A DNA stretch of 36,290 bases. It comes from Oscillospiraceae bacterium. GTDB taxonomy: Bacteria; Bacillota; Clostridia; Oscillospirales; Acutalibacteraceae. The stretch is taken from positions 1 to 36,290 of the forward strand of contig CACYCR010000181.1 in NCBI GenBank assembly GCA_902772935.1. The letters run 5' to 3'. The notes beneath the pieces were generated by a model, which saw only the letters and a program-made list of their open reading frames with translations, ran no database searches and was not told the origin of the DNA. A program made the translations under genes and the position numbers. Numbering within the stretch: the stretch's first letter is position 1; each line of letters opens with the position of its first letter. This document shows, piece by piece, positions 6,358 to 33,791 of this stretch.

Positions 6358-8511
6358 TTATTCGCCGATGCACTTCGTGCAGGGCGTGTAGCCGGACTTC
6401 TTCGCATCTGCCGCCGTCGTCGAAATCATGTTCGCACCCTGCATGTAGACACAGGTCGAACGGTGATAATGCTTGCCTTCCTTCGTCACATACACCGTAT
6501 CCGCACGGGCAGGAATCTTCACGCTTGCCACCGGTGAATAAACGCTGTATACCTTGCCGTTCGCCGCGGAGAACGCGCGCACTTTAAAGTAATAGGTTTT
6601 TCCTGCCGGCAGTACCTTCGTCGTAAACGTACGCGTCGTGCTCGTGCCGAGCTTCGTGTACGTTCCGTTTTCCGACGTCGCATAATAAATCACGTATTTC
6701 TGTGCGCCGACCACATTGCTCCAGGCAATCTTGACGGTACCTTTCTTTGCGTTCACCGCTGCCTTGACCGTCTTGGGCGCTGCAAGCGTAATCTTGTAGT
6801 ACAGCTTCTTCGTACCGCTGTAGTTGCCGGTGAAGGTCACCTTAACCGCGTACTTGCCGGGCTGTTTTCTGCCGGTGCTGTAAACCAGCGTGTAATCCGT
6901 ACCGTTGACGAGCTTGTTGCCTTCCGCGTCCTTCACAACGACTGCCGGTTTCTTCGCCTTGCCGTCGCAGACATAAGACGTCGCCGACAGTGCGATGCTC
7001 GCAACGCGCGGCACATCCGTCACCACTTCGCCCTCACCGCAAACTGCGCAGACCTTGCGCACAACGCCGTCTCTGGTCAGTGTCGCTTTCTTGATGCTCG
7101 TGGTCGCAGCTGTGTATTTATGGCCGGCGGCCGGAATCGTCTTGCTCTTGTACTGCTGGTTGCAGACCGCGCAACGCACAGATTTTCTGCCGGGCGCAGT
7201 GCAGGTTGCCGCCTTGTCAACGGTCCAGAACTTGTTCCACTGGTGACCCTTGGCTTTGATAACCTTCTCCGCCGTCTCATGGCCGCAGACCTTGCAGACC
7301 TTCTTGCCGACGCCGTCCACGTCACACGTTGCTTCCGAAATCACGACCAGTTCATAGTCATGGCCCGTCGCCGCTACTTCCTCCGTCACGGTTTCATCAC
7401 AGTAGGTGCAGGTCTTCGTCACCAGACCGGAGTCGGTGCAGGTCGCAGCCTTGATGATCTTTTCCACATAGTTGTGGTCCGTCTTCGGGAGATCCACGGA
7501 TTCTTCAAATACTGTTTTGCAGTATTCGCAGTACGAGCCTGCCGTGCGGCCCGCGTTCTGGCAGGTCGGCGTAATCGGCGCAATCGTTACGATCTTGTGT
7601 TCCTTCACCGGGATCTCCGTCTGCGCAACATAGATCTTACCGCAGCGGTCACACTGCTTACCTTCCGTCAGACCGGTTTCCTGGCAGGTCGCTTCCTTCG
7701 CTTCCATCTTCACGATGTGATGGCCGAGACGGTTTTTCGGATCGGTGTCATACGTATCGCCGCAGACACTGCAGGTATAGGTCGTCTTGCCCGGTGCTTC
7801 GCAGGTCGGTTCAATGATTTCCTTTTCATATTTGTGTCCCGGTGCCACACCGTTCTGGGTCTCCTTTTTGCCGCAGACGCTGCAGACGCGTTCTTTGGTC
7901 GCGCCGTGCGTGCAGTCACCCGCGCTGACTTCGACCCATTCGCCGAACGTATGACCGTTCGCGGCAACGATGTTCGTCTTGTAATTGTCGCCGCATTCCG
8001 AGCACTTATGCAGAACGTAGCCTTCGGTTTCGCAGGCCGGCGCAACTGTCGTTTCCACATACTTGTGCGCGGGCTTTGCAATTGATTCCGTCTTTGTTGC
8101 CGCACATTTCGTGCAGGTGAACACCTTGCTGCCTTCCCGGTCGCATTTGGCTTCCACAGTCACCGTACCGGCATTCCAGGCGTGTGCTTCCGTCTCTGTT
8201 TCGCCGCAGCGGCCGCAGGTACGCTTATGCATACCGTTGCCGGCATCGGTATACGCTCCCCAGTTGTGGCTGCCCGGGGCGCTGATGGTTTCACCGCCGA
8301 GTATGAACTTGTTGCACTTTGTGCACCAGACGCCTTCTTCATGACCGTCAACAAGGCAGGTTGCGGCCTCTTTCGCCATACTGACATATGCGCCTGCCAC
8401 GCCGGCATGCTCGCAGCCCCCGTCGGCGGCGAAAACCGCAGCCGGTACTGTGCCGAGCAGCAGCAGAATCATCATGCAGAGTGCAATGCTTCTTTTCAAC
8501 CCAGTTCTCAT
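6358..8511 (-). CDS. Secreted Cys-rich repeat protein with FN3 domain, 717 aa
   Basis: Signal peptide 1-28 (cleavage after AVFA). Residues 33-500 carry twelve repeats, each with one Cys and then a CxxC pair about 14 residues later (CTKC 63, CGRC 99, CTKC 133 ... CAVC 488). The last repeat has lost its single Cys. Residues 505-577 look like a beta-sandwich (bacterial Ig-like). Residues 578-668 are a fibronectin type III domain. The C terminus (671-717) has YHRSTC and CTKC, an H-C-CxxC module often seen at the ends of secreted Firmicutes proteins. No LPxTG motif or transmembrane tail is present. The repeats match those of the M23 peptidase at the left edge. The paired cysteines suggest metal binding or disulfide stacking on the cell surface; no enzyme domain is visible. 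Confidence 0.85.
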   Translation of the reverse strand: MRTGLKRSIALCMMILLLLGTVPAAVFAADGGCEHAGVAGAYVSMAKEAATCLVDGHEEGVWCTKCNKFILGGETISAPGSHNWGAYTDAGNGMHKRTCGRCGETETEAHAWNAGTVTVEAKCDREGSKVFTCTKCAATKTESIAKPAHKYVETTVAPACETEGYVLHKCSECGDNYKTNIVAANGHTFGEWVEVSAGDCTHGATKERVCSVCGKKETQNGVAPGHKYEKEIIEPTCEAPGKTTYTCSVCGDTYDTDPKNRLGHHIVKMEAKEATCQETGLTEGKQCDRCGKIYVAQTEIPVKEHKIVTIAPITPTCQNAGRTAGSYCEYCKTVFEESVDLPKTDHNYVEKIIKAATCTDSGLVTKTCTYCDETVTEEVAATGHDYELVVISEATCDVDGVGKKVCKVCGHETAEKVIKAKGHQWNKFWTVDKAATCTAPGRKSVRCAVCNQQYKSKTIPAAGHKYTAATTSIKKATLTRDGVVRKVCAVCGEGEVVTDVPRVASIALSATSYVCDGKAKKPAVVVKDAEGNKLVNGTDYTLVYSTGRKQPGKYAVKVTFTGNYSGTKKLYYKITLAAPKTVKAAVNAKKGTVKIAWSNVVGAQKYVIYYATSENGTYTKLGTSTTRTFTTKVLPAGKTYYFKVRAFSAANGKVYSVYSPVASVKIPARADTVYVTKEGKHYHRSTCVYMQGANMISTTAADAKKSGYTPCTKCIGE

Positions 8512-12444: not shown

Positions 12445-15051
12445 TTATGTAAAAATCCCGTATTTTTCCCGTACCCGGTCGAGCGTCTGCAGCATCGTCG
12501 GCGCAAGGAACCACAAGAACAGCGCCGTTGCCGCCGCATGGATGCAGTCCATTGGAAAGCCCGCCGCGTAATACGTCAGCAGGATTCTGCCGTTCAGCGC
12601 CTCCCCGCCCCAAAGCAGCGCCGAAGCGGGATTCATGATGCCGCCGTAGATCACAATGGCGCTGACTGCGCCGAAAGCGCAAAGCGACAGCCGGCTGCGC
12701 CGCAAAATACCGACGCGCGAAAGGATCCCCGCAAGGCACCCGATGATGCCCATTGCAAACATCTGCCACGGCGTCCAGGCGCCCTGCGCAAACAGCAGAT
12801 TGGACAGCAGCATGGTCACCGCACCGACCAGAAAACCGCTTTCCCCGCCGAGCGCGACACCCGCGAGAATCGTGATGGCAAGCACCGGCTTGCACTGCGG
12901 CAGCATAAAAAACGCCGCCCGTCCCGCAACGGCGAGCGCACAGAGCGTCGCCAGCAGCGTCAGCTCCCGCGCCTGCGGTTTCCGCCCTTCAAAAACCAGG
13001 AAAAACGGCAGCATTGACAGCACCAGCACCAGCAGCGCCGTGATGTAATACTGCTTTGTATCGAGTACCGCCACCGAGAGCCACAGCACTGCCGGGATCA
13101 GCGCAATCGCACACCCGGCGCTGACCCAGGTCCGCGCCGGAAGCTTTTGTCTTGTCTGCGGCAGCGGCACCGGCTGCTTTTGCGCTGTGAAAACGGCAAG
13201 CAGCAGCACACTCAGAAAGAAGCCGCCGCCCAGCAGCAGCTGCGGCAGTTTCAGCGTTGTCTGCACCGCAATATCGGAAAATGCGGAAAAATCCGTGCTG
13301 CGCATAAAGAGCACACTGCACACCAGCGCCGCCAGTGCGCTCAGTCCGGCGCACCATTTTCGCCAGCGCGCAAGCGGCATCTTTGCCGGACTGACCTGTT
13401 CATTCTGCGGCACCGCCGACGAAACAACCGTATTTTGCGGTTCGGGCGTACCGCCGAGGGCAGCAATCAGCTGCGCCGTGGTCACAACGTCCGGCAGACA
13501 GCCCTGCGCCATCCGCGCCGCCTGTGTTGTATAAAACCGGTTCTCCCGGAAAAACGTCTGCGGCGTCCCTTCGCTGACAATCGCGCCGTCAAACAGCAGT
13601 GCGCACCAATCGGCGTACTGCGCGCAGAATTCAATGTCGTGGCTGACCATCAGAATGCCGATGCCCTGCGTCTGCAGGGTCTTCAACAGTGCCGCGAACT
13701 GCGTCTTGAATGCCGCGTCAAAGCCTTTTGTCGGCTCGTCCAGCAGCAAAATGTCCGGCTGCGTGAGCAGCACCTTTGCCAGCGCCGCCCGCTGCAGTTC
13801 ACCGCCGGAAAGATCAAACGGATGCCGCTGCTCGAGCCCCTGCAAACCGCACTGCGCGATCATCGCGCCGACCCGCGCCGCCGCCTCTTTTTGCGGTATC
13901 CCGTCACACGCGCACAGCAGATCCTCCCAAAGCGTCGGCTTTGTAAACAGCGTCTGCGGCTGCTGCGGCAGCAGGGCTGTTTTGCCGGTACAATGTACAG
14001 TGCCGCTGTCTGCCGAGAGCCGGCCGTTCAGCAGCGAAAGCAGTGTCGATTTTCCTGCGCCGTTGCCGCCGAGGATACACGTCAGCCGGCCGCTGTGCGC
14101 AGTGAATGAACAATTCTTCAGCACCGGCGTCTCTTCATAGGCGAAGAACAGATCCCGCGCTTCCATCACAGCCGCGCCGCCTGTTGCCGTCGGCATCGGC
14201 TTCACCGGCTGCGGTGTATGGCTTTGCAGATAGGTTTTCAAAAAGGCCTGCCCCGCTTCCACGGAAACCGGGCATGGCAGCGCACTGTCCACACTGCTCC
14301 AGACACGCATCGGCGCCGGCAGCGCCGCACACAGCGGACTACGGTTTTCTTTCAGATGTTCGCAGACGGCCTGTACGCTGCCGCAGCACAGCAGCGCGCT
14401 GTCCTCCAGCACCGCCGCCTTTGTCGCGGCGGCAAATACCGTTTCCGTCCGGTGCTCGGTCAGCAGAACCGTCACGCCGAGCTCACGGTGCACTTTTTGC
14501 AGCATGGACAAAAACGTCTGTGCCGCGATCGGATCAAGCTGCGCCGTCGGCTCGTCCAGAATCAGTATGGTCGGCTGCAGCACCATGGCTGCCGCAAGGT
14601 TCAGCAGCTGCAGCATCCCGCCGGAAAGTGTGTGTGTCTTTTCGTGAAACAGCTTTTCCAACCCGAAAAATGCCGCCGTCTCCGCAACCCGCCGCCGGAT
14701 CAGGTCCGGCGCCATGCCGAGACTTTCCGCGCCGAACGCCAGCTCATGCCAGACCGTATCCGTCACAATCTGATCCTGCGGGTTCTGCTGCACAAAGCCG
14801 ATCTGTGCGGCCGTATCACGCTGCGGCAAAGCAGAAAGCGGTGTCCCGCAAAACAGCACGTCGCCGGCCGTCGTACCGTGCGGCGTCAGCTGCGGCTTCA
14901 ACTGCCGCAGCAGGGTTGATTTTCCGCTGCCCGATCTGCCGAGCAGCACAAAAAAATCCCCCGTGCTCACCGAAAACGAAAGGTTCCGCAGGGCGGGCGC
15001 AGCGCTGTTCGGATAGGTAAATGTCAGGTCTCTGACTGTCAACAGGTCCAT
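12445..15051 (-). CDS. Fused ECF transporter: two ATPase domains plus S component, 868 aa
   Basis: Residues 1-240 are the first ABC ATPase: Walker A GRSGSGKST (38-46), signature LSGGMLQ (142-148), Walker B ILILDEPT (162-169), switch His200. Residues 295-505 are the second: GGNGAGKST (328-336), LSGGELQR (414-421), ILLLDEP (434-440), His471. After a hydrophobic region (565-690) residues 695-860 resemble an ECF S component of the CbrT-like group (GVALGGESGFLVGAVTMLLSN, given as 730-750; then WTPWQMFAMGIIG). Usually EcfA1, EcfA2 and S are separate proteins. The S part sets substrate; cobalamin is inferred from operon and leader. Start ATG 15051 overlaps the ecfT end by 13 bp. The frame is open further upstream, but that part is antiframe to ecfT and not used. 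Confidence 0.88.
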   Translation of the reverse strand: MDLLTVRDLTFTYPNSAAPALRNLSFSVSTGDFFVLLGRSGSGKSTLLRQLKPQLTPHGTTAGDVLFCGTPLSALPQRDTAAQIGFVQQNPQDQIVTDTVWHELAFGAESLGMAPDLIRRRVAETAAFFGLEKLFHEKTHTLSGGMLQLLNLAAAMVLQPTILILDEPTAQLDPIAAQTFLSMLQKVHRELGVTVLLTEHRTETVFAAATKAAVLEDSALLCCGSVQAVCEHLKENRSPLCAALPAPMRVWSSVDSALPCPVSVEAGQAFLKTYLQSHTPQPVKPMPTATGGAAVMEARDLFFAYEETPVLKNCSFTAHSGRLTCILGGNGAGKSTLLSLLNGRLSADSGTVHCTGKTALLPQQPQTLFTKPTLWEDLLCACDGIPQKEAAARVGAMIAQCGLQGLEQRHPFDLSGGELQRAALAKVLLTQPDILLLDEPTKGFDAAFKTQFAALLKTLQTQGIGILMVSHDIEFCAQYADWCALLFDGAIVSEGTPQTFFRENRFYTTQAARMAQGCLPDVVTTAQLIAALGGTPEPQNTVVSSAVPQNEQVSPAKMPLARWRKWCAGLSALAALVCSVLFMRSTDFSAFSDIAVQTTLKLPQLLLGGGFFLSVLLLAVFTAQKQPVPLPQTRQKLPARTWVSAGCAIALIPAVLWLSVAVLDTKQYYITALLVLVLSMLPFFLVFEGRKPQARELTLLATLCALAVAGRAAFFMLPQCKPVLAITILAGVALGGESGFLVGAVTMLLSNLLFAQGAWTPWQMFAMGIIGCLAGILSRVGILRRSRLSLCAFGAVSAIVIYGGIMNPASALLWGGEALNGRILLTYYAAGFPMDCIHAAATALFLWFLAPTMLQTLDRVREKYGIFT

Positions 15052-15934: not shown

Positions 15935-16759
15935 TCAGTTCTGCTGTACGCCTGCGCCGCCGATGTCCGCACCGAGGTCGCAGGTATACCGCCAGGTGAT
16001 CACATCCCCCGGTTTGAGCGGGTACTTGCTGCAGCCATAGTTCGGATAGACGCCGTTCACCGCATACATCCAGCCGGAGGCTGCGCCGCAGTCAAATTCA
16101 TACAGGTTGCCGATGCCCTCAATATAGGCGCTCTGATAGACCGGCGTCATCGTGAATTCCATCGGGATGCCGTTTGCGCGGCAGGTGCGCTGCAGCACAT
16201 CAAACACGCTCTCCCCTTCTTGGAATGAAACGCTCGTCTTTGCCAGCAGCACGCCGTTTTGCGGCAACACCGCCTTCTGTGCGTCATCCAGCGCGCCGGA
16301 CCGCAAAGCCGTGTCACAGACAATGGAAATGCTGCAGCGCTGTACGGCCGTCGTCGGCGCCGTTGTCGTTCGCGCCGTTGTCGTTCGCGGCGCTGTGGTT
16401 GTCACCGGTGCAGCCGGCCGTGTTGTTGTTTGTTTTGTCGTCGTCGGCGTCGCTTTAGTCGGTTCGGTTGTTGCCGGTCCGGTCGTTGTCACCGACGGTT
16501 TGGTGGTCGCCTTTTCTGTCGACTGCCGCGAAGCTGTTGTCGCGGCAGTCGTTGTCGCGGTTGTTGTCGTTACCGCTGTTGTTGTGGTTGTCGCGGCGGC
16601 TGATGCCGTTTCCGTTGTGTCCGCCTGCGTCGTCTCTGTGGTGGTCTGCGCCGTTGCCGATGGCTGCGGCGATACCGTCGGTACTGTGGGCGCAGTCTGT
16701 TTGCCGCACGCTGTCAGACACAGCAAAAGCACCAGCAGCAAAAAGAAAGATCGTTTCAT
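15935..16759 (-). CDS. Lipoprotein with transcobalamin-like C-terminal (DUF4430) domain, 274 aa
   Basis: Signal peptide with lipobox LTAC; Cys18 would be lipidated and anchored outside the membrane. Residues 22-138 are an extended Thr/Pro/Ala linker. Residues 140-274 match the DUF4430 fold, with SGWMYAVNGVYPNYG and LKPGDVITWRYT. This domain is the homologue of the C-terminal beta domain of mammalian intrinsic factor and transcobalamin, which caps bound cobalamin. ATG 16759 overlaps the stop of the preceding gene as ATGA. Start choice is supported by the signal peptide. It probably works with the barrel protein encoded just upstream as a split B12-binding pair. B12 is inferred from homology and context; other ligands are possible. 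Confidence 0.83.
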   Translation of the reverse strand: MKRSFFLLLVLLLCLTACGKQTAPTVPTVSPQPSATAQTTTETTQADTTETASAAATTTTTAVTTTTATTTAATTASRQSTEKATTKPSVTTTGPATTEPTKATPTTTKQTTTRPAAPVTTTAPRTTTARTTTAPTTAVQRCSISIVCDTALRSGALDDAQKAVLPQNGVLLAKTSVSFQEGESVFDVLQRTCRANGIPMEFTMTPVYQSAYIEGIGNLYEFDCGAASGWMYAVNGVYPNYGCSKYPLKPGDVITWRYTCDLGADIGGAGVQQN

Positions 16760-18069
16760 ATGGGTTTCGCCCGCTTTCTGCGCAGTTCCCATCCGCAGAC
16801 GCCGCAAGCAAGCACCAGAACGGCAAGCGCTGCCGGTACACTGCTTTGTTCGCCGGTATGCGGCGTTGCTGCAGTCGACGCGCTCTGCGTCACGGTCGCG
16901 GCAGTCGGTTCCATCGGCTGTGCCGTCGTTGTTTCCGGCATTGTGCCGCGCGGATGGTCTGCACGGGTCGATGCTTCAGCCGCTTCTGTCGCGGCAGTTT
17001 CGCTTGTCGTCTCATTCGCGGAAGTACCGGATGGTTCTGTCTCTGTGATCGTCTCGGTTGCCTGCTGCGTTGTCGGCACGGTCGGTACCGTTGTCGGCGC
17101 GGCAGGCTGTACCGCAACGTCGGACATATCATACAGCGCGGTCTGTCCGTTCAGAAAGCGGTCATACGCCACTACCGCATAACCGCCCTGTTCCGTCGCC
17201 ATGGCATCCGGCTCGGTGTCGCCTTTGCTGTGCGCAAATCCCCCGCTCTGCGGCAGATAAAACGCGCAAAGCCCGTCCCAGGCCGAGCCGCCTGTTTTCA
17301 CGAAGCGCGCGTCCGTGTCCGGGTCGATGTTCCATGTGCAGCACGCGGTTACCACCTGCGCTGCACTCTCACAACTGCCGGAAAAGGTGCCGTCCGTTTT
17401 CTGCAGCGCCGAAAGCGCCGCAAAACCGCGTGCCGCCGCCGCTGCGACTGCCGCGTCTTCCCGGTACGGATACAGCGATTGCAGCACCATGGCCGTCAGG
17501 TCCGTTTCGGCCTTGTCACCGCTGAGCGTCCAGCCGCCGTCTGCGGTCTGTCGCGTCAGCAAGTTTTCCACGCAGGTCGTTCGTACTGTGGAAAATGTGT
17601 CATCATACGGCTTGCTGTCCAGCGCAAGCAGCGCAAACGCAAACCCGTTGCTCCCCTGCTTGCCGATCCAGTCGGTATTCGCATACGGCTGCAGCAAATT
17701 CACCCCGCCCACCGTTTGCACGTCGGCGCCGATCGCCGTCAGTGCCAGAATCAGCCGGGAATTCTCCGTGGACTTTGCCCGGTGCAGCGCGCCGTCCGGC
17801 CGCGCAATCTGCCGAACCGTCTCTGCAACACGGGCAGTATACGCGCCGAAATACGGTGCGTCCGCCGTGTAATAGCCGCCGCGTGCCAGACAAAGCACCG
17901 CCCATTCGCCGCCGATCGTTGATACGTCCGGCGTCGGTGTGGTTTCTGCGATATATTCCAAAATCGAATTTTTCAGTGTTTCTGTTTTCACAGATACTGC
18001 CGCTGCAGCCCAAACGCATTGCAGCATCAGGATCACCAGAACTGCCGCGATCATTTTTTGTTTTCGCAT
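16756..18069 (-). CDS. Surface protein with intrinsic-factor-like alpha/alpha barrel, 437 aa
   Basis: Signal peptide 1-24. Residues 30-320 form helical-pair repeats of the prenyltransferase/squalene-cyclase type (NGFAFALLALDS, RQTADGGWTLSG, TDLTAMVLQSL, QKTDGTFSG, EQGGYAVVAYDRF). This is the same alpha6/alpha6 barrel as the N-terminal domain of intrinsic factor and transcobalamin. A Thr/Glu-rich spacer follows, then TPHTGE, a hydrophobic helix and RRKRAK: an atypical LPxTG-like sorting signal, so wall anchoring by sortase is likely. Start ATG 18069 follows AGGAAGG; a longer frame upstream would run through the leader terminator. It is the first gene after the riboswitch-like leader. No cyclase active-site DxDD motif is seen, which argues for binding rather than catalysis. 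Confidence 0.8.
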   Translation of the reverse strand: MRKQKMIAAVLVILMLQCVWAAAAVSVKTETLKNSILEYIAETTPTPDVSTIGGEWAVLCLARGGYYTADAPYFGAYTARVAETVRQIARPDGALHRAKSTENSRLILALTAIGADVQTVGGVNLLQPYANTDWIGKQGSNGFAFALLALDSKPYDDTFSTVRTTCVENLLTRQTADGGWTLSGDKAETDLTAMVLQSLYPYREDAAVAAAAARGFAALSALQKTDGTFSGSCESAAQVVTACCTWNIDPDTDARFVKTGGSAWDGLCAFYLPQSGGFAHSKGDTEPDAMATEQGGYAVVAYDRFLNGQTALYDMSDVAVQPAAPTTVPTVPTTQQATETITETEPSGTSANETTSETAATEAAEASTRADHPRGTMPETTTAQPMEPTAATVTQSASTAATPHTGEQSSVPAALAVLVLACGVCGWELRRKRAKPI

Positions 18070-18093
18070 CAAAGCATCCTTCCTCTCTCCGGG

Positions 18094-18137
18094 CAAATAA
18101 AAAGAAGAGTCGCTACCGGAATTGCGGTTCAACTCTT
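18094..18137 (-). terminator. Leader terminator (expression platform)
   Basis: Minus-strand stem AAGAGTTG/CGACTCTT with inner ACCG/CGGT pairing, followed by CTTTTTATTT. It stands between the riboswitch-like aptamer and the first gene, as expected for control by premature termination. Confidence 0.85.
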
Positions 18138-18159
18138 CACGCCCAAGCGGAAAACCAAA

Positions 18160-18318
18160 AAGACACGAAAGGGCCTGACTTTTGCCGCGATGCAAGCCGG
18201 AGGCCCTGTTTCGCGGCAAACACAGGAATGGCGGTTGCTCCGGATTCGAACCGGATCTCCTTTCATCACCCTGCCGGTGATGCTCTTACTCAGCGCACAA
18301 CTTTTCAAACCGTGTCTT
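18160..18318 (-). promoter_or_regulatory. Cobalamin-riboswitch-like leader, divergent
   Basis: A perfect 8-bp closing helix joins AAGACACG (18318-18311) to CGTGTCTT (18167-18160). Inside are a hairpin ATCAC/GTGAT, the element GGAGATCCGGTTCGAATCC and GGAGC, close to the cobalamin core GGGAATCCGGTGxGAATCC-GGAGC. After these come a 9-bp stem TTTGCCGCG/CGCGGCAAA and AAGTCAGG, the conserved 3' motif. The B12-box region reads ACCGCCATTCCTGTG rather than CCGCCACTGTG, so it is not textbook. Position between a promoter and a terminator ahead of transcobalamin-like and ECF genes supports B12 sensing. A covariance-model search would settle it. Confidence 0.68.
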
Positions 18319-18338
18319 GTTCTTCTTTTGTCCGGTTT

Positions 18339-18367
18339 ATTCTATCATACTTTTTCGGTATTTGCAA
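18339..18367 (-). promoter_or_regulatory. Sigma-A promoter of the B12-uptake operon
   Basis: TTGCAA (18367-18362), 17 bp, TAGAAT (18344-18339) on the minus strand. Transcription would begin a few bases before the closing helix of the riboswitch-like leader. Confidence 0.78.
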
Positions 18368-18391: not shown

Positions 18392-18435
18392 CCAAAAAGG
18401 AACTGCCGGCGCACACGCGCCGACAGCTCTTTTTT
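18392..18435. terminator. Bidirectional intrinsic terminator
   Basis: 18400-18412 pairs with 18417-18429 over 13 positions (two G-U in minus-strand RNA), loop of four. Minus-strand RNA continues CTTTTTGG and plus-strand RNA continues TTTTTTG. It ends the two-gene unit at 18448-20465. Confidence 0.85.
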
Positions 18436-20731: not shown

Positions 20732-21535
20732 TCAGTGTGGCTGCGCGGTTCCCGTTTTCGGGATAGTAATTTCAAAGATATAGCTGTCTTCTGTTTCTTT
20801 TTTGGAAAGATCTGCAGGAATTCCTGCATCAACCATGGTTGTATATGCATTGTGGATGGTATTCAGAAAAATGCGCACATCACTGAACAGCCGCCGCGTG
20901 GTCCGTTTCGGTACGGCTTTCTTCTCCAGAAGATCTTCGATCAGCTTTTCTTCCTGCGCAACATTCAGGTTGCGGGCGATTACCTTTTGCAAAACAGGCA
21001 GCATATCCCCTTCCTTCAGCCGCAGCAGCGCCCGCGCATGCCGTTCGGACAGGTGATTTTCTGCCAGCAGGCGCTGCACTTCCGCCGGCAGTGACAGAAG
21101 CCGCAGTTTATTGGAGACCGTTGATGGCGCTTTGCCGAGCCGCCGCGCGGCTTCTTCCTGTGACAGGCCGAACTGCCGCATCAGCTTTTCAATGGCGAGC
21201 GCTTCTTCAAAGTAGCTGAGATTCTGCCGCTGCAGGTTTTCGATCAGCGAAAATATTGCCGATTTCATCTCATTGACATCCACAACGATGCACGGCACCG
21301 CCACCAGACCGGCCAGCCGCGATGCGCGCAGCCGCCGCTCGCCGGATACCAGTTCATAACCTTTGTCCGTTTTGCGCACCGTGATCGGCTGCAGGATGCC
21401 GTTCATCCGGATGCTGATTGCCAGGTTGACCAGTTCGCTCTGATCAAAGACCCGGCGCGGCTGATTCGGATTCGGCACGATCTTCTCGTTCGGGATCAGA
21501 AGCACCTGTCCCGCCGGATGCAGTTCATTCTGCAT
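20732..21535 (-). CDS. ParB/Noc-family chromosome-segregation protein, 267 aa
   Basis: N-terminal ParB/Srx CTPase domain: PNPNQPRRVF, then GERRLRASRLAG, the arginine-rich CTP/parS-loading motif. A central helix-turn-helix follows (LSQEEAARRLGKAPSTVSNKL), then a C-terminal dimerisation region. Such proteins clamp onto DNA at parS (Spo0J/ParB) or at Noc sites. Position after rsmG matches B. subtilis noc. However, there is no long N-terminal amphipathic helix typical of Noc, and a perfect parS lies 1.2 kb away in mnmG, so ParB-type specificity is at least as likely. No parA is adjacent. GGGGGAGG precedes ATG 21535. Confidence 0.88.
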   Translation of the reverse strand: MQNELHPAGQVLLIPNEKIVPNPNQPRRVFDQSELVNLAISIRMNGILQPITVRKTDKGYELVSGERRLRASRLAGLVAVPCIVVDVNEMKSAIFSLIENLQRQNLSYFEEALAIEKLMRQFGLSQEEAARRLGKAPSTVSNKLRLLSLPAEVQRLLAENHLSERHARALLRLKEGDMLPVLQKVIARNLNVAQEEKLIEDLLEKKAVPKRTTRRLFSDVRIFLNTIHNAYTTMVDAGIPADLSKKETEDSYIFEITIPKTGTAQPH

Positions 21536-21603
21536 GAAAAACCTCCCCCTTTGTCCCTATCGTAGCACAAAGGCGGAGGCTTGTCCATTTCTTTCGTGTG
21601 GCT

Positions 21604-22356
21604 TTATTTTTCTGTTTTCGCGCTTTTCTTTCCGGAAACGAGCGGATTTTTTGCAATTTTTGCGGAAGGACGCGGATATTTCGGGTTTGTTGTCGTACGC
21701 TTTTTGATTAAAACCAGACTGCGCGCGCCGACGTCTTCCAGCGTGAGCGTGGTGCACTGCGGTTTTCCGCCGCCGAGCGTCCGGACGGCAAACGCGCCTT
21801 CCTCCAGTTCTTCGCGGACTGTGCCGCTTTTCATCGCCGCAAATTGCCCGCCGACCTTTGCAAACGGCAGACAATATTCCGCCAGCAAATGCAGCGGCGC
21901 CACAGCGCGCGCCGTCACCAGATCATACTGCTCCCGATACTGTGGGTTTTGTCCGGCTTCTTCGGCCCGTGCGTGCAGCAGCTCTGCCGAAAGTGACAAT
22001 CTCTGCAGAATATCGTCCAGAACCATCAGCTTTTTCTTTGTGCTGTCCAGCAGCGTCACCTGCAGGTCCGGCCGGGCAATCAGCAGCACCAGACCCGGAA
22101 ATCCTGCGCCGGTGCCGACGTCGATGAGTTTCGCGCCCGGATGCGGTGTAACAGCGGTCAGGACAGCGAGACTGTCAACGAAGTGCTTTGCAACGATCTC
22201 CTTCGGTGTTGTGATTGCCGTCAGGTTGATCTTCGTATTCCATTCGACCAACGCTTTGGCGTAGATGTCGAAGCGATCCAGCGCTGCATCATCCAGTACG
22301 ACACTGAGCTGCGCTGCTTTTTCTTGCAGCGTTTCTTTTTCAATGAATTCGTTCAT
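21604..22356 (-). CDS. rsmG: 16S rRNA (guanine-527-N7)-methyltransferase, 250 aa
   Basis: Methylates G527 of 16S rRNA using SAM. LIDVGTGAGFPGLVL is the SAM-binding loop, and NLTAIT and HFVDSL are family hallmarks. The C terminus has a Lys-rich tail of about 25 residues beyond the usual domain. It starts one base after the mnmG stop, the standard mnmG-rsmG arrangement. Confidence 0.95.
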   Translation of the reverse strand: MNEFIEKETLQEKAAQLSVVLDDAALDRFDIYAKALVEWNTKINLTAITTPKEIVAKHFVDSLAVLTAVTPHPGAKLIDVGTGAGFPGLVLLIARPDLQVTLLDSTKKKLMVLDDILQRLSLSAELLHARAEEAGQNPQYREQYDLVTARAVAPLHLLAEYCLPFAKVGGQFAAMKSGTVREELEEGAFAVRTLGGGKPQCTTLTLEDVGARSLVLIKKRTTTNPKYPRPSAKIAKNPLVSGKKSAKTEK

Positions 22357-22357
22357 G

Positions 22358-24262
22358 TCAATCGTCCTTTTTCGCCTGCGTCTGTCGCAAAAGCGCTTCC
22401 TGCTTTTTGAGATAGATGATCAATACGGAAATATCCGCCGGGCTGACGCCGGAAATGCGTGACGCCTGTCCGAGATTCTGCGGCTTCACTTTGTTCAGCT
22501 TTTCCTGCGCTTCCATCCGCAAGCCCTGAATCCGCGTATAATCCAGCGTTTCATCCAGCTTCTTAACCTCAAGTCGGCGCATCTCCTGTGCCTGCGCTTG
22601 CTGTCGCTTGATATAACCTTCATATTTAATGGAGATCTCAACCTGTTCAAAGACCTCCGCCGGCAGGTCCGGCCGATCCGGATCAAACGGTGCAAGACAC
22701 GCATAATCCAGCTGCGGTCGCCGGATCAGATCAATCAGGCGGCAACCGGTTTTCATTTCGGATGTTTCACGTGAAACAAGCAGCGCATCCAACGCAGGGC
22801 TCGGTGCAACACCGACCGATTCGACGCGGCGGCGTTCTTCCGCAATCAGTCGTTCCTTTTCCAGCAGCCGCTGCAATTTTTCTTCGCCGACCAGGCCGAC
22901 CGCATAGCCGATCTTTGTCAGCCGCAAATCCGCATTGTCCTGCCGCAGCAACAACCGGTACTCCGACCGGGAAGTCATCATGCGGTACGGATCCTGACAG
23001 CCGCGGGTCACCAGATCGTCGATCAGCGTGCCGATATAGGAACTGGCACGATCCAGCACCAGCGGGTCTTTGCCCTGCACCTTTTTTGCGGCGTTGATTC
23101 CGGCAATCAGCCCCTGTGCAGCAGCTTCTTCGTATCCGCTTGAGCCGTTGAACTGTCCGGCACCGAACAGACCCTGCAACGTTTTGAACTCCAGCGTCGG
23201 ATATAGTGCCTGCGGATCCACACAGTCATATTCGATGGCGTAGGCGGTGCGCATGACCTGTACATGTTCAAGACCGGGGATCGTGCGCAGAAACTTGAGC
23301 TGGACATCCTCGGGGAGAGAGGATGACATGCCTTGCAGATACATCTCTTCCGTGTGCGCGCCGCAAGGTTCAATGAAGAGCTGATGCCGCTGCTTTTCCG
23401 GAAAACGAACAATCTTGTCTTCAATGCTTGGGCAATACCGCGGACCAACGCCGTCAATTTTGCCGCTGAACAGGGGAGAGCGATCCAGATTTTCAAGGAT
23501 CACTTTTTTTGTCTCTTCATTGGTATAGGTCATATAGCAGGGGAGTTCATTTTTTGGCTGATACAGTCCATCAAACGAAAACGGGACAATCGGCTCGTCG
23601 CCGTCCTGCCGTTCAAGTCCGGAAAAATCAATACTTCTGCGGTTGACACGCGCCGGTGTTCCCGTTTTGAACCGTCTTGTCGGTACGCCGAGGCGCTTGA
23701 GCGCGTCTGCCAGCGCCGTTGCCGGGAACATCCCGTCCGGACCGCCGGCGTAAGATACGTCGCCGACATAGATGCGTCCGCCGAGAAAGGTGCCCGTTGC
23801 AAGAATCACCGTCTTTGCATGGTAGATCGCCTCCAGACGGGTCACCGCTTTCCAGGTGCCATCGGCGTTCTGCGTCAGATCAACGATCTCCGCCTGCACG
23901 ACCTCCAGATTCTCCTGCGTTTCCAGGCAGTGCTTCATGTATTCGCTGTAGCGGCGGCGGTCGATCTGCGCGCGCAGCGAATGTACGGCAGGCCCCTTTC
24001 CGCGGTTGAGCATCCGGCTTTGCAGGGTATTCGCGTCCGCCGCTTTGCCCATCTCACCGCCAAGCGCATCAATTTCACGCACAAGATGTCCTTTCGACGT
24101 TCCGCCGATCGAAGGGTTGCAGGGCATGTTGCCGACCCAGTCCATGTTGATCGTGAAAACGCCGACCGAAACACCGAGCCGCGCGGGTGCAAGCCCGGCT
24201 TCGATGCCGGCATGCCCCGCGCCGATCACCAGCACGTCATATTCTTTTGCAAAATACTGCAT
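22358..24262 (-). CDS. mnmG: tRNA uridine-34 carboxymethylaminomethyl enzyme MnmG (GidA), 634 aa
   Basis: With MnmE it installs the cmnm5 group on wobble U34 of several tRNAs, using FAD, NADH and methylene-THF. VIGAGHAGIEAG is the FAD Rossmann motif. NPSIGGTSKGHLVREIDALGG and GQFNGSSGYEEAAAQGL are GidA signatures (quoted in shortened form in positions 40-60 and 370-390). Length matches the family (about 630). ATG 24262 follows AAAGGA; an upstream in-frame ATG at 24286 lacks a ribosome site. mnmE is not in this window. The gene carries a perfect parS site within its coding sequence. Confidence 0.96.
   Translation of the reverse strand: MQYFAKEYDVLVIGAGHAGIEAGLAPARLGVSVGVFTINMDWVGNMPCNPSIGGTSKGHLVREIDALGGEMGKAADANTLQSRMLNRGKGPAVHSLRAQIDRRRYSEYMKHCLETQENLEVVQAEIVDLTQNADGTWKAVTRLEAIYHAKTVILATGTFLGGRIYVGDVSYAGGPDGMFPATALADALKRLGVPTRRFKTGTPARVNRRSIDFSGLERQDGDEPIVPFSFDGLYQPKNELPCYMTYTNEETKKVILENLDRSPLFSGKIDGVGPRYCPSIEDKIVRFPEKQRHQLFIEPCGAHTEEMYLQGMSSSLPEDVQLKFLRTIPGLEHVQVMRTAYAIEYDCVDPQALYPTLEFKTLQGLFGAGQFNGSSGYEEAAAQGLIAGINAAKKVQGKDPLVLDRASSYIGTLIDDLVTRGCQDPYRMMTSRSEYRLLLRQDNADLRLTKIGYAVGLVGEEKLQRLLEKERLIAEERRRVESVGVAPSPALDALLVSRETSEMKTGCRLIDLIRRPQLDYACLAPFDPDRPDLPAEVFEQVEISIKYEGYIKRQQAQAQEMRRLEVKKLDETLDYTRIQGLRMEAQEKLNKVKPQNLGQASRISGVSPADISVLIIYLKKQEALLRQTQAKKDD
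22763..22778. promoter_or_regulatory. parS centromere site inside mnmG
   Basis: TGTTTCACGTGAAACA is a perfect 16-bp palindrome matching the Firmicutes parS consensus TGTTNCACGTGAAACA. It encodes VSRET within MnmG. It lies about 12 kb from dnaA on the origin-proximal side, where ParB sites usually cluster. Confidence 0.93.
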
Positions 24263-24284
24263 AGTGTTTTCCTTTGCTTTGCCC

Positions 24285-24325
24285 AAAAGTTTTCCACGCT
24301 TGTTCGACAGCCGTTGAAAACTTTT
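24285..24325. other. Inverted repeat in the mnmG 5' leader
   Basis: AAAAGTTTTC (24285-24294) and GAAAACTTTT (24316-24325) form perfect 10-bp arms around a 21-nt loop. It lies between the phosphatase gene and mnmG and could be a weak terminator of the former or leader structure of the latter. TTTTCCACG at its edge resembles a DnaA box with two mismatches. Confidence 0.45.
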
Positions 24326-24354
24326 CTCTATATATTTATATTTCTATTTTGGAA

Positions 24355-25020
24355 TTATAAAACAGAAACACCCACAATGTCCAGGATGTCTTTTGCCGTT
24401 GCGGCGATGTGTGTTGCCCGGTGTGCCTCAAATTCTTCTTTGGAACCGTAACCGAACAGCACGCCGCAGCTGTCCACGCCCGCGCCGGCGGCGCCGTCAA
24501 TATCAAAACAGCGGTCGCCGACCATCAGTACCCGTGCTGTGTTGGCAGCGCCGAGCAGCTCCATGCTCTTGCGCACAAGGTCGGCTTTGCCGGCGTGATT
24601 GCTATCGTCAAACTGCGTACCGACCACGGCATCGAACAGGGCCGTCAGATGAAAGTGTTCCATCACATCGTAGATCAGCGTCTGCGGTTTGGACGAGGCA
24701 ATGCCGAGTTTCACGCCGTCTTGCCGCAGGGCTTTCAGTGTTTCAACCATCCCGTCATACAAACAGGCCTCGTAGATGCCTTTTTCACGGTAGCGTTTGC
24801 GGTAGCTTTTGATGTAGTCGCCGACCTGTTCCTCGCTTACGCCGTAAAAGGTCGTGAAGCTGTAATGGATCGGCGGCCCGATGAATTTTTTCAGATCCGA
24901 CAGGTCCGGGATCTCATGACCCTGCACTTCAAACGCATACTGCAGACTGCGCAGAATCCCTTCGCCGGTATCGATCACCGTGCCGTCAAAATCAAAAATC
25001 ACATAATCATAGTTGCGCAT
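24355..25020 (-). CDS. HAD-superfamily phosphatase, phosphoglycolate-phosphatase-like, 221 aa
   Basis: Class IA HAD hydrolase: motif I DFDGTVIDT (nucleophile Asp and acid Asp), motif II IASSKP, motif III Lys in HAGKAD, and motif IV MVGDRCFDIDGA. A helical cap (about 20-85) sits between I and II, as in Gph/PgmB relatives. The substrate cannot be fixed from sequence; phosphoglycolate or a phospho-sugar is typical. ATG 25020 has AAGGAG upstream; a longer frame from 25080 would run through a hairpin. It follows the LytR-CpsA-Psr gene in the same direction. Confidence 0.88.
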   Translation of the reverse strand: MRNYDYVIFDFDGTVIDTGEGILRSLQYAFEVQGHEIPDLSDLKKFIGPPIHYSFTTFYGVSEEQVGDYIKSYRKRYREKGIYEACLYDGMVETLKALRQDGVKLGIASSKPQTLIYDVMEHFHLTALFDAVVGTQFDDSNHAGKADLVRKSMELLGAANTARVLMVGDRCFDIDGAAGAGVDSCGVLFGYGSKEEFEAHRATHIAATAKDILDIVGVSVL

Positions 25021-25044
25021 AGGTTCTCCTTTTATACAGAACAA

Positions 25045-25072
25045 CGGGCGGACGCGCTGCGTTGTCCGCCCG
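25045..25072. terminator. Hairpin between lcp and HAD genes
   Basis: CGGGCGGAC (25045-25053) and GTCCGCCCG (25064-25072) form a 9-bp GC-rich stem. On the minus strand the following bases (TTGTTCTG) are a poor T-run, so it may attenuate rather than end transcription. Confidence 0.5.
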
Positions 25073-25080
25073 AAAAACAA

Positions 25081-26244
25081 TCAAAATCCGGAAACCAGTT
25101 GGAAGGGGACCACGCGGTCTTCTGAAAGCTCGATATTGCTTTCCCCGTAGATCCCGGTCTGAATCCGCTGCGCCGCCAGGGCAAAATCAATCAGTACCAG
25201 TGCCGTTCCGCCGATATAGCCCGCGCGGAAGACGTCATCATCCGCGATCGTTGTCTCCTGAATTCTATAATTCATCCAGCCGTTGGCAAGACCCTGCGCG
25301 CCGTAGGACAAAATCTCCATCTTGGTCAGATTCGTTTTGACATAACGGAGCAGGGAGTCAATCGCGTTGTTGAGCTGCGAGAGGGAGGCGCCTCTTGCGG
25401 AATCCATCAGCGCCATGATGACCTTGCGCTGCCGCCGGGTACGGCTGACATCGCTGTCGGAGTCGCTTTTGCGGATTCGCGCATACACCAGCGCCTGCCA
25501 ACCGTTGAGCCGCACGTTTTTGCCGTAGGGGAATTCCTTGTGGTCGGTTGAGGTGCTGCGAATATATTCCGCTTCATACTGTTCCACGTCGATGGTCAGG
25601 CCGCCGAGGGCATTGATGATGTCCGTGAAGGAACTGAAATCGACTGCAGCATAGTAATCGATTTTGATTTTGAAATTCTTTTCGATCGTTTCCAGCAGAC
25701 CGTCCACACCGCCGTACATATAAGAGGAATTGATCTTGCCGTACCGCTCCACGCCGCGGATATTCATATACGTCCACGTATCGCGGAAAAGGGAGGTCAT
25801 GTTGATCGTTTTGGTCTTTTTGTTGAGTGAAACGAGAATCAGGGTGTCCGAACGGCCGCCCTTTTCAAGCGCTTCCGCGGAGTCGAGACCGATCAGCAGC
25901 ACATTGATGACATTTTTGCTGCTCATCGGTACGCCGTCATTGTTCGCCCATTTGGAAAGATAATCATTGAGCGATCCGGCGGCGTCAATGGACTGCATGA
26001 TCTCATAGTCTTCGTCGTCATAGATTTCATCGCCGTTCATCGTCTGCGTACTCGCATTCTTATCGGCATAATCGATCTTGCCGAGCTTTGCGTTGACATA
26101 GCCGAGACCGACGGCAAAAATCACAACAAAAAGCATCAGAAAAAATGTCAGATTCTTTGCCCGGTGCTGTTTGTCGAGCCAAAGAAACTGTGTCAGCGGA
26201 TTTCCTTTTCTTTCCGGCTTGGGTTTTTGGTTCAAGCTGCTCAC
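25081..26244 (-). CDS. LytR-CpsA-Psr family cell-wall ligase, 387 aa
   Basis: LCP enzymes transfer anionic polymers from lipid carriers to peptidoglycan on the outer face of the membrane. There is a short cytoplasmic N terminus and one membrane helix (NLTFFLMLFVVIFAVGLGYV in 31-50). The LCP domain begins at about 112: NVLLIGLDS, GGRSDTLILVSL, TSLFRDTWTY, and ALVYARIRKSDSDSDVSRTRRQ, which carries the conserved Arg residues contacting pyrophosphate. The start is taken as GTG 26244 with a weak purine-rich site; TTG 26235 is an alternative. It is 27 bp downstream of gyrA, so may share its transcript. Confidence 0.9.
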   Translation of the reverse strand: MSSLNQKPKPERKGNPLTQFLWLDKQHRAKNLTFFLMLFVVIFAVGLGYVNAKLGKIDYADKNASTQTMNGDEIYDDEDYEIMQSIDAAGSLNDYLSKWANNDGVPMSSKNVINVLLIGLDSAEALEKGGRSDTLILVSLNKKTKTINMTSLFRDTWTYMNIRGVERYGKINSSYMYGGVDGLLETIEKNFKIKIDYYAAVDFSSFTDIINALGGLTIDVEQYEAEYIRSTSTDHKEFPYGKNVRLNGWQALVYARIRKSDSDSDVSRTRRQRKVIMALMDSARGASLSQLNNAIDSLLRYVKTNLTKMEILSYGAQGLANGWMNYRIQETTIADDDVFRAGYIGGTALVLIDFALAAQRIQTGIYGESNIELSEDRVVPFQLVSGF

Positions 26245-26271
26245 TTCTTTCTTTTGTTTCGTCCGCCGTTT

Positions 26272-28788
26272 TTATTCTTCTACATTTGCAGCGGAAGATA
26301 CGTCTGCCGCTTCGGTTTCTTCCGGAAGATCATTTTCGTCATTCTCACTCTTGATGGCCGCTGCGGAAACCACTTTTTCACCGGACGTGACACGCATTAC
26401 ACCGACGCCGCGCGACGTTCTGGAATTGACGTTGATCTCGTTTGCGTTCATACGGATGACAATACCGTCAGAGGAGATGAGAATGACGTCGTCATCCTCA
26501 CGTACCAGACAGACGGAAGCCACGTTTCCGTATTTTTCAGTCTTATAGTTTGTTGAACCTTTGCCGCCGCGGGTCTGACAGCGGTATTCGGAAAGCTCAC
26601 TGCGCCGGCCGAGACCGGTTTCGGAAACGGTCAGGATTTTTGCGTCGTCCGTTTCGTTTTCCGCAATGGCGCACATACCGACCACTTCGTCGTCCGCCCG
26701 CAGTTCAATGGAACGCACACCGCGCGCGGTTCTGCCGATGGCGCGGGCATCGTTTTCATTGAAGCGGATGCCGTAACCGTTGCGCGTCGCAATATAGATG
26801 TCGTCGTTGCCTTCGGTCAGCTTGACCCACGCGAGCTCGTCGCCTTCATCAAGGTTGATGGCAATGATGCCGCCCTTGCGGATGTTGCGGTATTCGTCAA
26901 GCCTGGTGCGCTTGATGACGCCTTTGCGTGTTGCCATGCAAAGGTAATACTTGTCCTCGCCGAAGTTCGGCACCCGGATCATCGCGCTGACCTTTTCGCC
27001 GTTTTCCAGGGGCAGCAGGTTGACAATGTTGATGCCCTTGCTCTGGCGGCTGGCCTCCGGGATCTCATAGCCCTTGAGGCGATAGGTCCGGCCGTACGTC
27101 GTGAAGAACATGATGAAGTCATGACTCGAGCAGGAGAACATGGTCTGCGTGACATCTTCTTCTCTGCGGCTCATGCCTTTGATGCCCTTGCCGCCACGGC
27201 GCTGAATGGAGTATTCCGCCGTCGGCATCCGTTTGATATAGCCGAAGGTTGTCAGCGTATACATGCATTCCTCTTCCGGAATGAGATCTTCGACATCCAC
27301 TTCACCGCTGACGTTGACGATTTCGGTCAGACGCGGATCGGCAAACTTGCCGCGCAGCGCCATTGCTTCATCTTTGACGATTTCCAGCACGCGGCTCTCA
27401 CTGGCAAGGATGTCCTGGTATTCCGCAATCTTGGCCTGGATCGCTTTGAGTTCATCTTCGATTTTGATACGCTCGAGACCGGTCAACTGACCGAGACGCA
27501 TTTTGACAATGGCGTCCGCCTGAATGTCGTCAAAGCCGAAGCGTTCCATGAGCGCGGCCTTGCCTTCCGCCTGATCCTTTGCCTTGCGCAAAATGGCGAT
27601 GATTTCGTCAATGTAATCCAGCGCGGTTTTCAGACCTTGCAGGATGTGTTCGCGCTCCATCGCTTTTTTCAGATCAAAGCGGGTGCGGCGTTCGATGACT
27701 TTTTCCTGAAAGTGGATGTATTCCTCCAGAATCTGCCGCAGAGTCAGAATGCGCGGCACACCGTCCACAAGGGCGAGCATGATGATACCGTAGGTGATCT
27801 GCAGCTGCGTCATGGAGTACAGCGAATTGAGAACGACCTGCGGATTCGCCTCACGCTTGAGGTCGATCACAAGGTTCATGCCTTCGCGGTTGGAATAGTC
27901 GTTGATATCGGAAATGCCGTCCAGACGTTTTTCCTTAACCAGATCCGCAATGGATTCGATCAGACGACGTTTGTTGACCTGATAGGGGAGTTCGGAAATG
28001 ACAATCTGGAAGCGGCCGTTTTTTGCTTCCACGATTTCGGCGCGGGCACGCACGGTGATCTTTGCGCGGCCGGTGCCGTAAGCGGCACGGATGCCCGCCT
28101 TACCCATGATGATGCCGGCGGTCGGGAAATCCGGGCCTTTGATATAGGTCATCAGTTCATCCAGCGAAGCATCCGGATGGTCGATCAGATAGCACATGCC
28201 GTCGATGACCTCGCCGATGTTGTGCGGCGGAATGTTCGTCGCCATACCGACGGCGATACCCGTGGACCCGTTGACCAGAATGTTCGGAAAACGAGAGGGG
28301 AGAACGGTCGGCTCTTTCAGACGGTCGTCATAGTTCGGAATGAAGTCGACGGTATCCTTGTCGATATCCGTGAGCATCTCCATGGAGATCTTGCTCATGC
28401 GCGACTCGGTATAACGGTAGGCTGCCGGGGGGTCGCCGTCCACGGAACCGAAGTTGCCGTGACCGTCCACCAGCAGATAGCGCGTGGAGAAGGTCTGCGC
28501 CAGACGCACCATTGCGTCGTAAACAGAAGCGTCGCCGTGCGGATGATAGCGACCCAGAACGGAACCGACGGTGTCCGCGCATTTGCGGTACGCCTTATCG
28601 GGATACAGGCCGTTTTCATGCATCGTATACAGGATACGGCGGTGTACGGGCTTCAGACCGTCGCGCACATCCGGCAGGGCGCGGGACGTGATGACCGACA
28701 TGGAGTAGCTCAAAAAGGATGAGCGCATCTCCTTGTTCAGATCAACGTCAATGATCGTTTGATTTTCATAATTTGAAGTGTTATCCAT
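26272..28788 (-). CDS. gyrA: DNA gyrase subunit A, 838 aa
   Basis: Breaks and reseals DNA for negative supercoiling. The catalytic Tyr is in AAYRYTE; the winged helix carries [17 protein letters not shown]. The C-terminal beta-pinwheel includes the GyrA box QTRGGKG (in CQTRGGKGS), which supports true gyrase rather than topoisomerase IV. In the quinolone-determining region the residue equivalent to E. coli Ser83 is Ala and the next is Ser, as in mycobacteria. Asp87 is kept. ATG 28788 follows AAGGTG; the GTG at 28797 overlaps that site. Confidence 0.97.
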
Positions 28789-28814
28789 TGTAATCACCTT
28801 GCATTATACCAAGC

Positions 28815-30854
<2,040 letters not shown>

Positions 30855-31100: not shown

Positions 31101-31110
31101 GATTCGTTCC

Positions 31111-32441: not shown

Positions 32442-32462
32442 ATGCAGTCATCCTAAAGCTGA

Positions 32463-33557: not shown

Positions 33558-33713
33558 GATTTATCCTCCTTCAAAAAACTTCAAAAAATTGCTTGTGTTG
33601 TAAGATAATTAAAATAGTAGTATTAGTAGGAACGTGAAAATGATGGAAAAGCGAAAAAGTGCTTGAACTGCAGCGGAATTTTCACATGCAGAGTTTTGTT
33701 GAAAATCTGGCGG

Positions 33714-33747: not shown

Positions 33748-33791
33748 GTTGAAAATTAAGGATGAAATGTGAAATAAAACATGAAAAATCC

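Follow-up and report, generated by a model that had tools for sequence, protein, structure and literature searches.

Can the two domains of mammalian intrinsic factor and transcobalamin be encoded by a bacterium as two separate surface proteins, and would such a pair serve the uptake of vitamin B12 (cobalamin)? This question is raised by a locus in a stretch of 36,290 nucleotides (nt) from an Oscillospiraceae bacterium (GenBank assembly GCA_902772935.1, contig CACYCR010000181.1, positions 1 to 36,290 of the forward strand), which is here called the window; the group of the source bacterium is common in animal guts. For positions 15935-18318 an earlier note on this DNA had claimed an alpha/alpha-barrel protein and a DUF4430 lipoprotein, encoded by two consecutive overlapping genes, preceded by a cobalamin-riboswitch-like leader and followed by energy-coupling factor (ECF) transporter genes. 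The range indeed spans both genes (18069..16756 and 16759..15935, with 4 nt shared) and almost the whole leader (18120-18331). On the minus strand the order is leader, barrel gene, DUF4430 lipoprotein gene, EcfT gene and a gene for an EcfA-EcfA-EcfS fusion. The locus is probably a cobamide (B12) uptake operon in which a two-chain receptor of the intrinsic factor/transcobalamin fold feeds an ECF transporter. Such a receptor is considered likely because of its fused homologues, the riboswitch family of the leader, the homology of the transporter to CbrT and the mutual exclusion of DUF4430 and cbiD in related genomes.

Receptor proteins and their one-chain homologues

That intrinsic-factor- or transcobalamin-like halves are present on separate chains is well supported by homologues carrying both on one chain and by the structural matches of one of them, L121. 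Among 54 barrel open reading frames (ORFs) from the window and its relatives, 30 were split, with DUF4430 in a separate gene, 12 were fused to DUF4430, and for 12 no partner was found in the stretch. When named genomes were scanned with a fused query, barrel and DUF4430 lay on one chain in the best 80 of 409 confirmed candidates, several Ruminococcus flavefaciens strains among them; because the query itself was fused, this result says nothing on the frequency of the split form. The fused gene, EcfT, EcfA and EcfS followed in exactly that strand order at 62 of the 80 loci. For the model of the fused L121 chain (pLDDT 83.4, pTM 0.66), PDB ranks 1-15 were all transcobalamin, intrinsic factor or haptocorrin (E 1.2e-7 to 3.8e-6). 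Its C-terminal domain matched the isolated human transcobalamin beta domain 5no0 with a TMt of 0.71, a comparison of the beta-domain fold that rests on this fused homologue's model and not on the DUF4430 domain of the window. The structural matches of L121 also included the solved Ruminococcus gnavus protein 3u7z, to which no function is assigned.

The lipoprotein of the window was found as described in the earlier note, with an LTAC lipobox (MKRSFFLLLVLLLCLTAC), a Thr-rich stalk of about 115 residues and a C-terminal DUF4430 domain (Pfam PF14478, E 9e-21, 74.5 bits against a cut-off of 23.8). By pattern search a lipobox was matched in 12 of the 30 split DUF4430 partners, that of L074 being doubtful; the signals of L062, L064, L066, L067 and L069 end, by reading, in LCAC, which lies outside the pattern used. 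Searches of the DUF4430 core and of the barrel core against PDB sequences with phmmer gave chance matches only. Residues Y212, W230 and N235 were kept in at least 131 of 133 DUF4430 domains, and D190, T192, Q238, H280 and Q294 in at least 124 of 130 barrels; all are candidate residues for a possible shared site.

The window barrel alone had no informative match in Pfam or NCBIfam. Within the aligned barrel family the SQHop_cyclase_C model was matched by 20 of 24 members and the Prenyltrans toroid model by 20 of 24 (E up to 0.1), and the barrel profile found terpene cyclases among PDB sequences. An AlphaFold2 model of the window barrel (pLDDT 84, pTM 0.87) was built on an alignment of the window and 22 barrels of fused homologues only, at 24-34% identity. 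It matched toroids, and by this model the protein is an alpha/alpha toroid, in agreement with the claim made for it. Among the 50 PDB matches listed, transcobalamin appeared from rank 13 (E 1.7e-3, TMq 0.48-0.59). The barrel fold fits the alpha domain of intrinsic factor, which alone is no proof because terpene cyclases share the fold and rank higher.

Two further observations were made on DUF4430 genes. At L075, L080, L081, L082, L088, L092 and L096 extra genes with a weaker DUF4430 match lie close to the main pair or immediately ahead of it; one transporter might be served by several proteins of this kind. Seven other loci (L109, L110, L111, L112, L116, L117 and L120) hold DUF4430, EcfT, EcfA and EcfS with no barrel match in the fetched stretch, and may represent a simpler form of the system.

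The arrangement recurs among relatives. DUF4430 was also present in 43 of 48 barrel loci fetched from relatives, some of them truncated by contig ends, and 32 of the 48 held DUF4430 and EcfT within the fetched stretch, so the operon arrangement is non-random. At 23 of the 30 split loci the receptor genes lay within 60 nt of each other (measured on stop-to-stop frames), and in 11 measured split loci, picked among the close pairs, they overlapped by 1-11 nt.

Position of the gene boundary and direction of change

Between the two domains of the one-chain homologues lie two hydrophobic helices (all 80 named fused chains and 10 of the 12 fused chains of relatives), parted in the examples inspected by a short basic loop, and both domains are therefore predicted to be extracellular. 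The gene boundary of the window falls at the loop of this two-helix hairpin, and the C-terminal helix of the window barrel was taken as the counterpart of the first transmembrane helix (TM1) of the fused homologues. At L079, L093 and L095 two genes overlap by 1-4 nt, a helix with a basic tail closes the first and a helix opens the second; judged by their sequences, these loci are an intermediate form with one helix per chain. When their DUF4430 proteins were compared with fused chains, 85 to 88 of 91 alignments started within the first 15 residues, and helix and linker alone matched fused chains with E down to 9e-5. In the window and its nearest split kin an xPxTG motif precedes the first helix and a lipoprotein signal replaces the second.

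A barrel tree of 70 rows, unrooted and with long branches, was calculated with 20 of the 80 named fused rows included and 4 odd-length rows dropped. In it, the 30 fused rows with two helices formed, along with two barrel-only rows, one starred 32-row side (96/90), two-gene forms lay on several branches, and the split/fused label needed 3 changes. Whether the two-gene form is the older one, with the one-chain two-helix form arising by fusion of neighbouring overlapping genes, is an evenly balanced question. This placing of the rows speaks for it, and a hairpin would arise directly when a gene ending in helix and basic tail joins a helix-starting gene, but splitting fits the unrooted tree equally well. 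The word "split" is thus apt in that two genes stand against one-chain homologues, but not for the direction that it implies, which an unrooted tree cannot give.

Leader, transporter and ligand

The leader was assigned to the cobalamin riboswitch family by homology. R1, a covariance model of 12 homologous leaders with the window excluded, matched the window leader with 117.4 bits (E 7.2e-36), and in nhmmer comparisons with the leaders of relatives the window leader matched L069 (E 1.4e-22), L066 (1.1e-21), L065 (4.6e-13) and L072 (8e-11). Among the five of the 12 R1 member leaders scanned with Rfam, L065, L066, L069 and L072 pass RF00174 (Cobalamin) and L071 fails. Rfam itself gave the window leader 20.1 bits for AdoCbl against a gathering threshold of 50 and no match at gathering, and the sole match of a whole-window scan at gathering was a cut tRNA at the window end. 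The claim of a cobalamin-riboswitch-like leader accordingly stands as one of family homology, at a score below Rfam's gathering threshold. A search with R1 of 24 sources besides the window matched 14 at E up to 0.1, the two matches of L077 being short and weak.

In the genomes of relatives, an RF00174 or RF01482 match was found no more than 5 kb upstream and on the same strand for 32 of 50 barrel matches (E up to 0.01 for RF00174 and up to 0.1 for RF01482, the window's own leader standing outside the 32), and 21 of these 32 had RF00174 at or over its cut-off. For this count the Rfam matches were transcribed by hand, and 50 of 56 barrel matches were used after dropping five that were second matches in loci already counted and one weak match (E 2.9e-4). 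RF01482 was over its cut-off in none of 147 relatives' genomes, and its sub-threshold matches were counted only beside RF00174.

Judging by its predicted fold, a terminator-like hairpin at the end of the leader is a possible expression platform; it was missed by a simple terminator scan that permits just one small loop. A tRNA reading of the leader, suggested by GGTTCGAATCC, was rejected after ARAGORN found no tRNA. Inspecting the DNA ahead of 11 barrel genes for simple motifs helped little, the distance from leader to barrel gene being variable, and the identity of the leader was settled by the homology search. A second cobalamin-riboswitch-like match was observed elsewhere in the host genome (G000:C96:261-487, plus strand; RF00174 28.8 bits, just under gathering).

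The ECF transporter genes expected after the receptor pair were recovered. The EcfA-EcfA-EcfS fusion matched ABC_tran (E 1.3e-53) in 2 stretches, corresponding to two ATPase domains, and its C-terminal 188 amino acids (aa), the S component, matched CbrT (6fnp_A) with E 1.3e-10 across residues 12-185. The EcfT proteins of the window and of L061 had no Pfam match; of four orthologues scanned, the other three (L103, L082 and L099) matched CbiQ (PF02361). CbrT is a demonstrated cobalamin transporter that carries cobinamide as well; its affinity for cobalamin is about 9 nM (PMC5997447).

Co-occurrence was counted in 147 genomes, with Fisher p values not corrected for relatedness. DUF4430 was found in 119 of them and a barrel was detected in 45; all 45 barrel genomes carried DUF4430 (p 1.6e-5). 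DUF4430 was present in 2 of 14 genomes with cbiD as compared with 117 of 133 without it (p 1.6e-8). The host genome, which is 84% complete, had no cbiD match and encodes a MetH-like protein in which homocysteine methyltransferase, pterin and B12-binding domains are combined, and so fits a B12 user dependent on import. The link to B12 made in the earlier note is thus upheld by the riboswitch family, the CbrT-like S component, the DUF4430/cbiD exclusion and the MetH-like protein.

Surface anchoring

The C-terminus of the window barrel has the layout of a sortase anchor, with TPHTG (an xPxTG-type motif), a hydrophobic helix and the basic tail RRKR, and two matches to sortase (PF04203) were over the cut-off in the host genome. 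An xPxTG motif before a C-terminal helix was found at 12 of the 30 split loci, including all 8 split rows of the starred 9-row clade of the window, in which the ninth row, L071, is truncated at a contig end. L068 and L072, the next split rows outward from this clade, are without it, and in the remaining split barrels motif, helix or both are missing. Among fused chains it occurred in none of the 12 from relatives and in 4 of the 80 named ones, in two of the four shortly before the first helix. From these sequence features wall attachment of the barrel is possible, and a plain membrane anchor as in L079, L093 and L095 is equally possible. The barrel end of L078 resembles S-layer repeats.

Weighing of the readings

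Several results weigh against a two-chain cobamide receptor under riboswitch control. Ten of 25 sources gave no match to R1; they include the nearest split relatives (L061, L062, L063 and L064) as well as L070, L074, L078, L079, L095 and L097. Of these R1-negative sources, an Rfam match is present only in the L063 genome, 4.4 kb upstream and beyond the fetched stretch. In the window leader the B12 box diverges in its 3' part, with its last bases off consensus, and the folding energy is ordinary (z -1.74, with 14 of 200 shuffles folding as well). All 9 Foldseek matches of the window-barrel model at E up to 0.001 were terpene-cyclase-type enzymes, intrinsic factor was absent among the 50 structural matches listed, and a profile of 24 DUF4430 domains gave no convincing match among PDB sequences and no transcobalamin chain. 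The whole-chain root-mean-square deviation of L121 to its 15 transcobalamin, intrinsic factor and haptocorrin matches was 10.5-18.0 A, so its model reproduces the two folds, not their placing. The NCBIfam LPXTG_anchor model gave the window barrel 12.6 bits and did not reach its cut-off of 15.9; of the claimed LPxTG-like anchor the layout, the recurrent xPxTG and the sortase matches hold, but not the model match. Barrel and cbiD were not significantly associated (2 of 45 against 12 of 102 genomes, p 0.23). Finally, 7 of the 30 split pairs are separated by 500-847 nt, and tight coupling of the genes is therefore not universal.

The wide spacing of these seven pairs would suit a system in which both proteins serve B12 uptake without closing jointly on the ligand, the lipoprotein being the receptor of the transporter and the barrel a distinct store or a binder of long reach. 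Genomes with DUF4430 but no barrel match are also common (of 147, DUF4430 was detected in 119 and a barrel in 45). Of 12 fetched loci lacking a barrel match, 7 hold DUF4430, EcfT, EcfA and EcfS, so that DUF4430 can accompany an ECF module without a barrel, and cyanocobalamin is bound by the human transcobalamin beta domain in isolation (PMC5599065). Such a division of labour is nevertheless unlikely in view of the presence of DUF4430 in every barrel genome, the overlaps at the 11 close loci, the 23 pairs within 60 nt and the single chain of the fused forms. An exported barrel enzyme, terpene-cyclase-like or polysaccharide-lyase-like, that stands by chance beside a B12 operon would agree with the terpene cyclases that top the structural matches of the window barrel and with the other alpha/alpha-toroid enzymes that match it too. 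DxDD, the acid motif of class II cyclases, was however found anywhere in just 6 of 134 barrel domains and is absent from the window barrel, which has, by reading, a signal peptide, and most classified loci have the barrel either fused with DUF4430 or beside it; an enzyme is thus extremely improbable. The same architecture might instead hold a ligand that is not a cobamide, such as a metal chelate or another tetrapyrrole: DUF4430 proteins are diverse, and a distinct metabolite was suggested for archaeal members (PMC1796856). With the CbrT-like S component, the riboswitch family here and at related loci and the DUF4430/cbiD exclusion standing against it, and with hemin found not to compete with uptake by ECF-CbrT (PMC5997447), such a ligand is very unlikely.

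Proposed mechanism and its meaning

For the two-chain cobamide receptor the following course is proposed. At low cobamide the leader would let transcription pass the terminator hairpin. The toroid protein would be exported and held C-terminally in the membrane, or in the wall after sortase cleavage at TPHTG, and the DUF4430 protein, as its lipobox suggests, would be lipid-anchored on a long flexible stalk. Each chain would supply one face of the binding site, cobamide would pull the chains together near the membrane, and the closed complex would pass the ligand to the CbrT-like S component. Separately expressed alpha and beta domains of human transcobalamin co-elute only with cobalamin, which makes a natural two-chain receptor physically reasonable, and the same cobalamin-dependent assembly is cited for intrinsic factor (PMC5599065). 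It is tentatively suggested, with a confidence somewhat short of even, that cobamide acts as glue, a wall-held toroid and a membrane-tethered DUF4430 domain meeting across the Gram-positive envelope only with the ligand.

If this is true, two chains on two tethers would divide between them the binding of ligand at a distance from the membrane and its delivery at the transporter, and the locus would provide a natural two-chain counterpart of intrinsic factor, whose domain closing was studied with separated halves. Under this reading the same receptor occurs in neighbouring lineages as a single chain, which a two-helix hairpin would fold back through the membrane, and the intrinsic-factor fold could then be compared in natural one-chain, helix-plus-helix and wall-plus-lipid versions. 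The pair is a concrete candidate for B12 capture ahead of an ECF transporter in bacteria without an outer membrane; in the parts of the open-access literature available, no experimentally shown extracellular receptor for this step was found. The locus is also relevant to the idea that intrinsic factor reached animals from bacteria of this kind (PMC1796856).

Feature coordinates and neighbouring genes

The coordinates of the operon features are collected in Table 1. The promoter scan, which covered both strands, gave 2 promoter-like sites where shuffled sequence gave 0.3; this alone is no proof of function.

Table 1. Features of the putative cobamide uptake operon (positions in the window)
Feature	Positions	Strand	Basis or remark
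Sigma-70-like promoter, TTGCAA-17-TAGAAT, TG before second hexamer	18339..18367	-	consensus scan
Cobalamin-riboswitch-family leader	18120..18331	-	covariance model R1; nhmmer to Rfam-called leaders
Terminator-like hairpin, 9-pair outer stem, -16.2 kcal/mol, then TTTTTATTT	18094..18138	-	just before barrel gene
Barrel gene, 437 aa: signal peptide, alpha/alpha-toroid, Thr-rich stalk, TPHTG, transmembrane helix, RRKR	16756..18069	-	
Toroid (alpha-domain-like) region	17095..18009	-	used in alignment and structure prediction
TPHTG sorting-like motif, residues 402-406	16852..16866	-	
C-terminal transmembrane helix, about residues 411-429, then RRKR	16783..16839	-	hydropathy
Lipoprotein gene, 274 aa: lipobox LTAC (Cys18), Thr-rich stalk, DUF4430 domain	15935..16759	-	
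DUF4430 (transcobalamin beta-domain-like) region	15938..16345	-	PF14478 match; alignment
EcfT-like membrane protein, 288 aa	15039..15905	-	same operon place in relatives
EcfA-EcfA-EcfS fusion, 868 aa; S component CbrT-like	12445..15051	-	

Further features were observed around the operon. A 13-pair hairpin with a T run at 18400-18429 (minus strand) is probably the terminator of upstream TPR-like and membrane-protein genes. An oriC-type cluster adjoins the operon at 20732-35153, with dnaA, dnaN, recF, gyrB, gyrA, mnmG, rsmG and parB-like genes by ORF reading. On the other side, a 548-aa protein (4048-5694, minus strand) combines an N-terminal TIR domain (TIR_2, E 1.1e-18; also ThsB_TIR) with C-terminal RCC1-like repeats, an unusual pairing. 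A 717-aa exported-looking protein (6358-8511, minus strand) contains, by reading, many short repeats with CxxC-type pairs; an fn3-like domain was under the cut-off, and the repeats had no Pfam family match.

Comparison with known systems

Bacteroides BtuG/BtuH and the DUF4465 lipoproteins belong to protein families other than those of the window pair and to outer-membrane bacteria; they too are surface lipoproteins capturing B12. The ECF-CbrT transporter of Lactobacillus delbrueckii (6FNP) shares with the window a homologous S component, two ATPase domains and EcfT, and the window differs from it in that an EcfA-EcfA-EcfS fusion is dedicated to the system and an extracellular receptor pair is present; in the available text of PMC5997447 no extracellular receptor for CbrT was found described.

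Also close is the SLBB family of Burroughs et al. (2007), who reported a bacterial fusion of toroid and SLBB domain with Gram-positive anchors and CbiO/CbiQ neighbours in bacteria usually without key enzymes of B12 synthesis, and proposed B12 scavenging and gene transfer to animals (PMC1796856). The window has in common with it the DUF4430/SLBB domain, the toroid, surface anchoring and CbiO/CbiQ-type neighbours. It differs by the separate pair of genes: the available text describes a one-chain toroid-SLBB form, stand-alone SLBB and paralogous SLBB in one operon, a separate toroid and SLBB gene pair was not found in it, and the word "riboswitch" occurs 0 times in the main text (PMC1796856). The novelty implied by the earlier note is accordingly reduced, the fused architecture, Gram-positive anchors and CbiO/CbiQ neighbours having been known since 2007. 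Within the literature searched, the two-chain two-anchor form, the hairpin correspondence with its intermediates, the riboswitch, the CbrT link and the cbiD exclusion look new, and no experiments on a bacterial DUF4430 or transcobalamin-like member were found in the open-access titles and abstracts searched.

With mammalian intrinsic factor, transcobalamin and haptocorrin (2pmv, 2bb5 and 4kki), the best matches of the fused homologue, the system shares an alpha toroid and a beta domain. The mammalian binders are each one soluble chain, the bacterial fused homologues one chain with a membrane hairpin (80 of the 80 best matches to the fused query), and the window encodes two separately anchored chains. 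The human pair of transcobalamin alpha and beta domains, which assembles only with cobalamin, was engineered (PMC5599065), whereas the pair of the window is a natural two-chain one.

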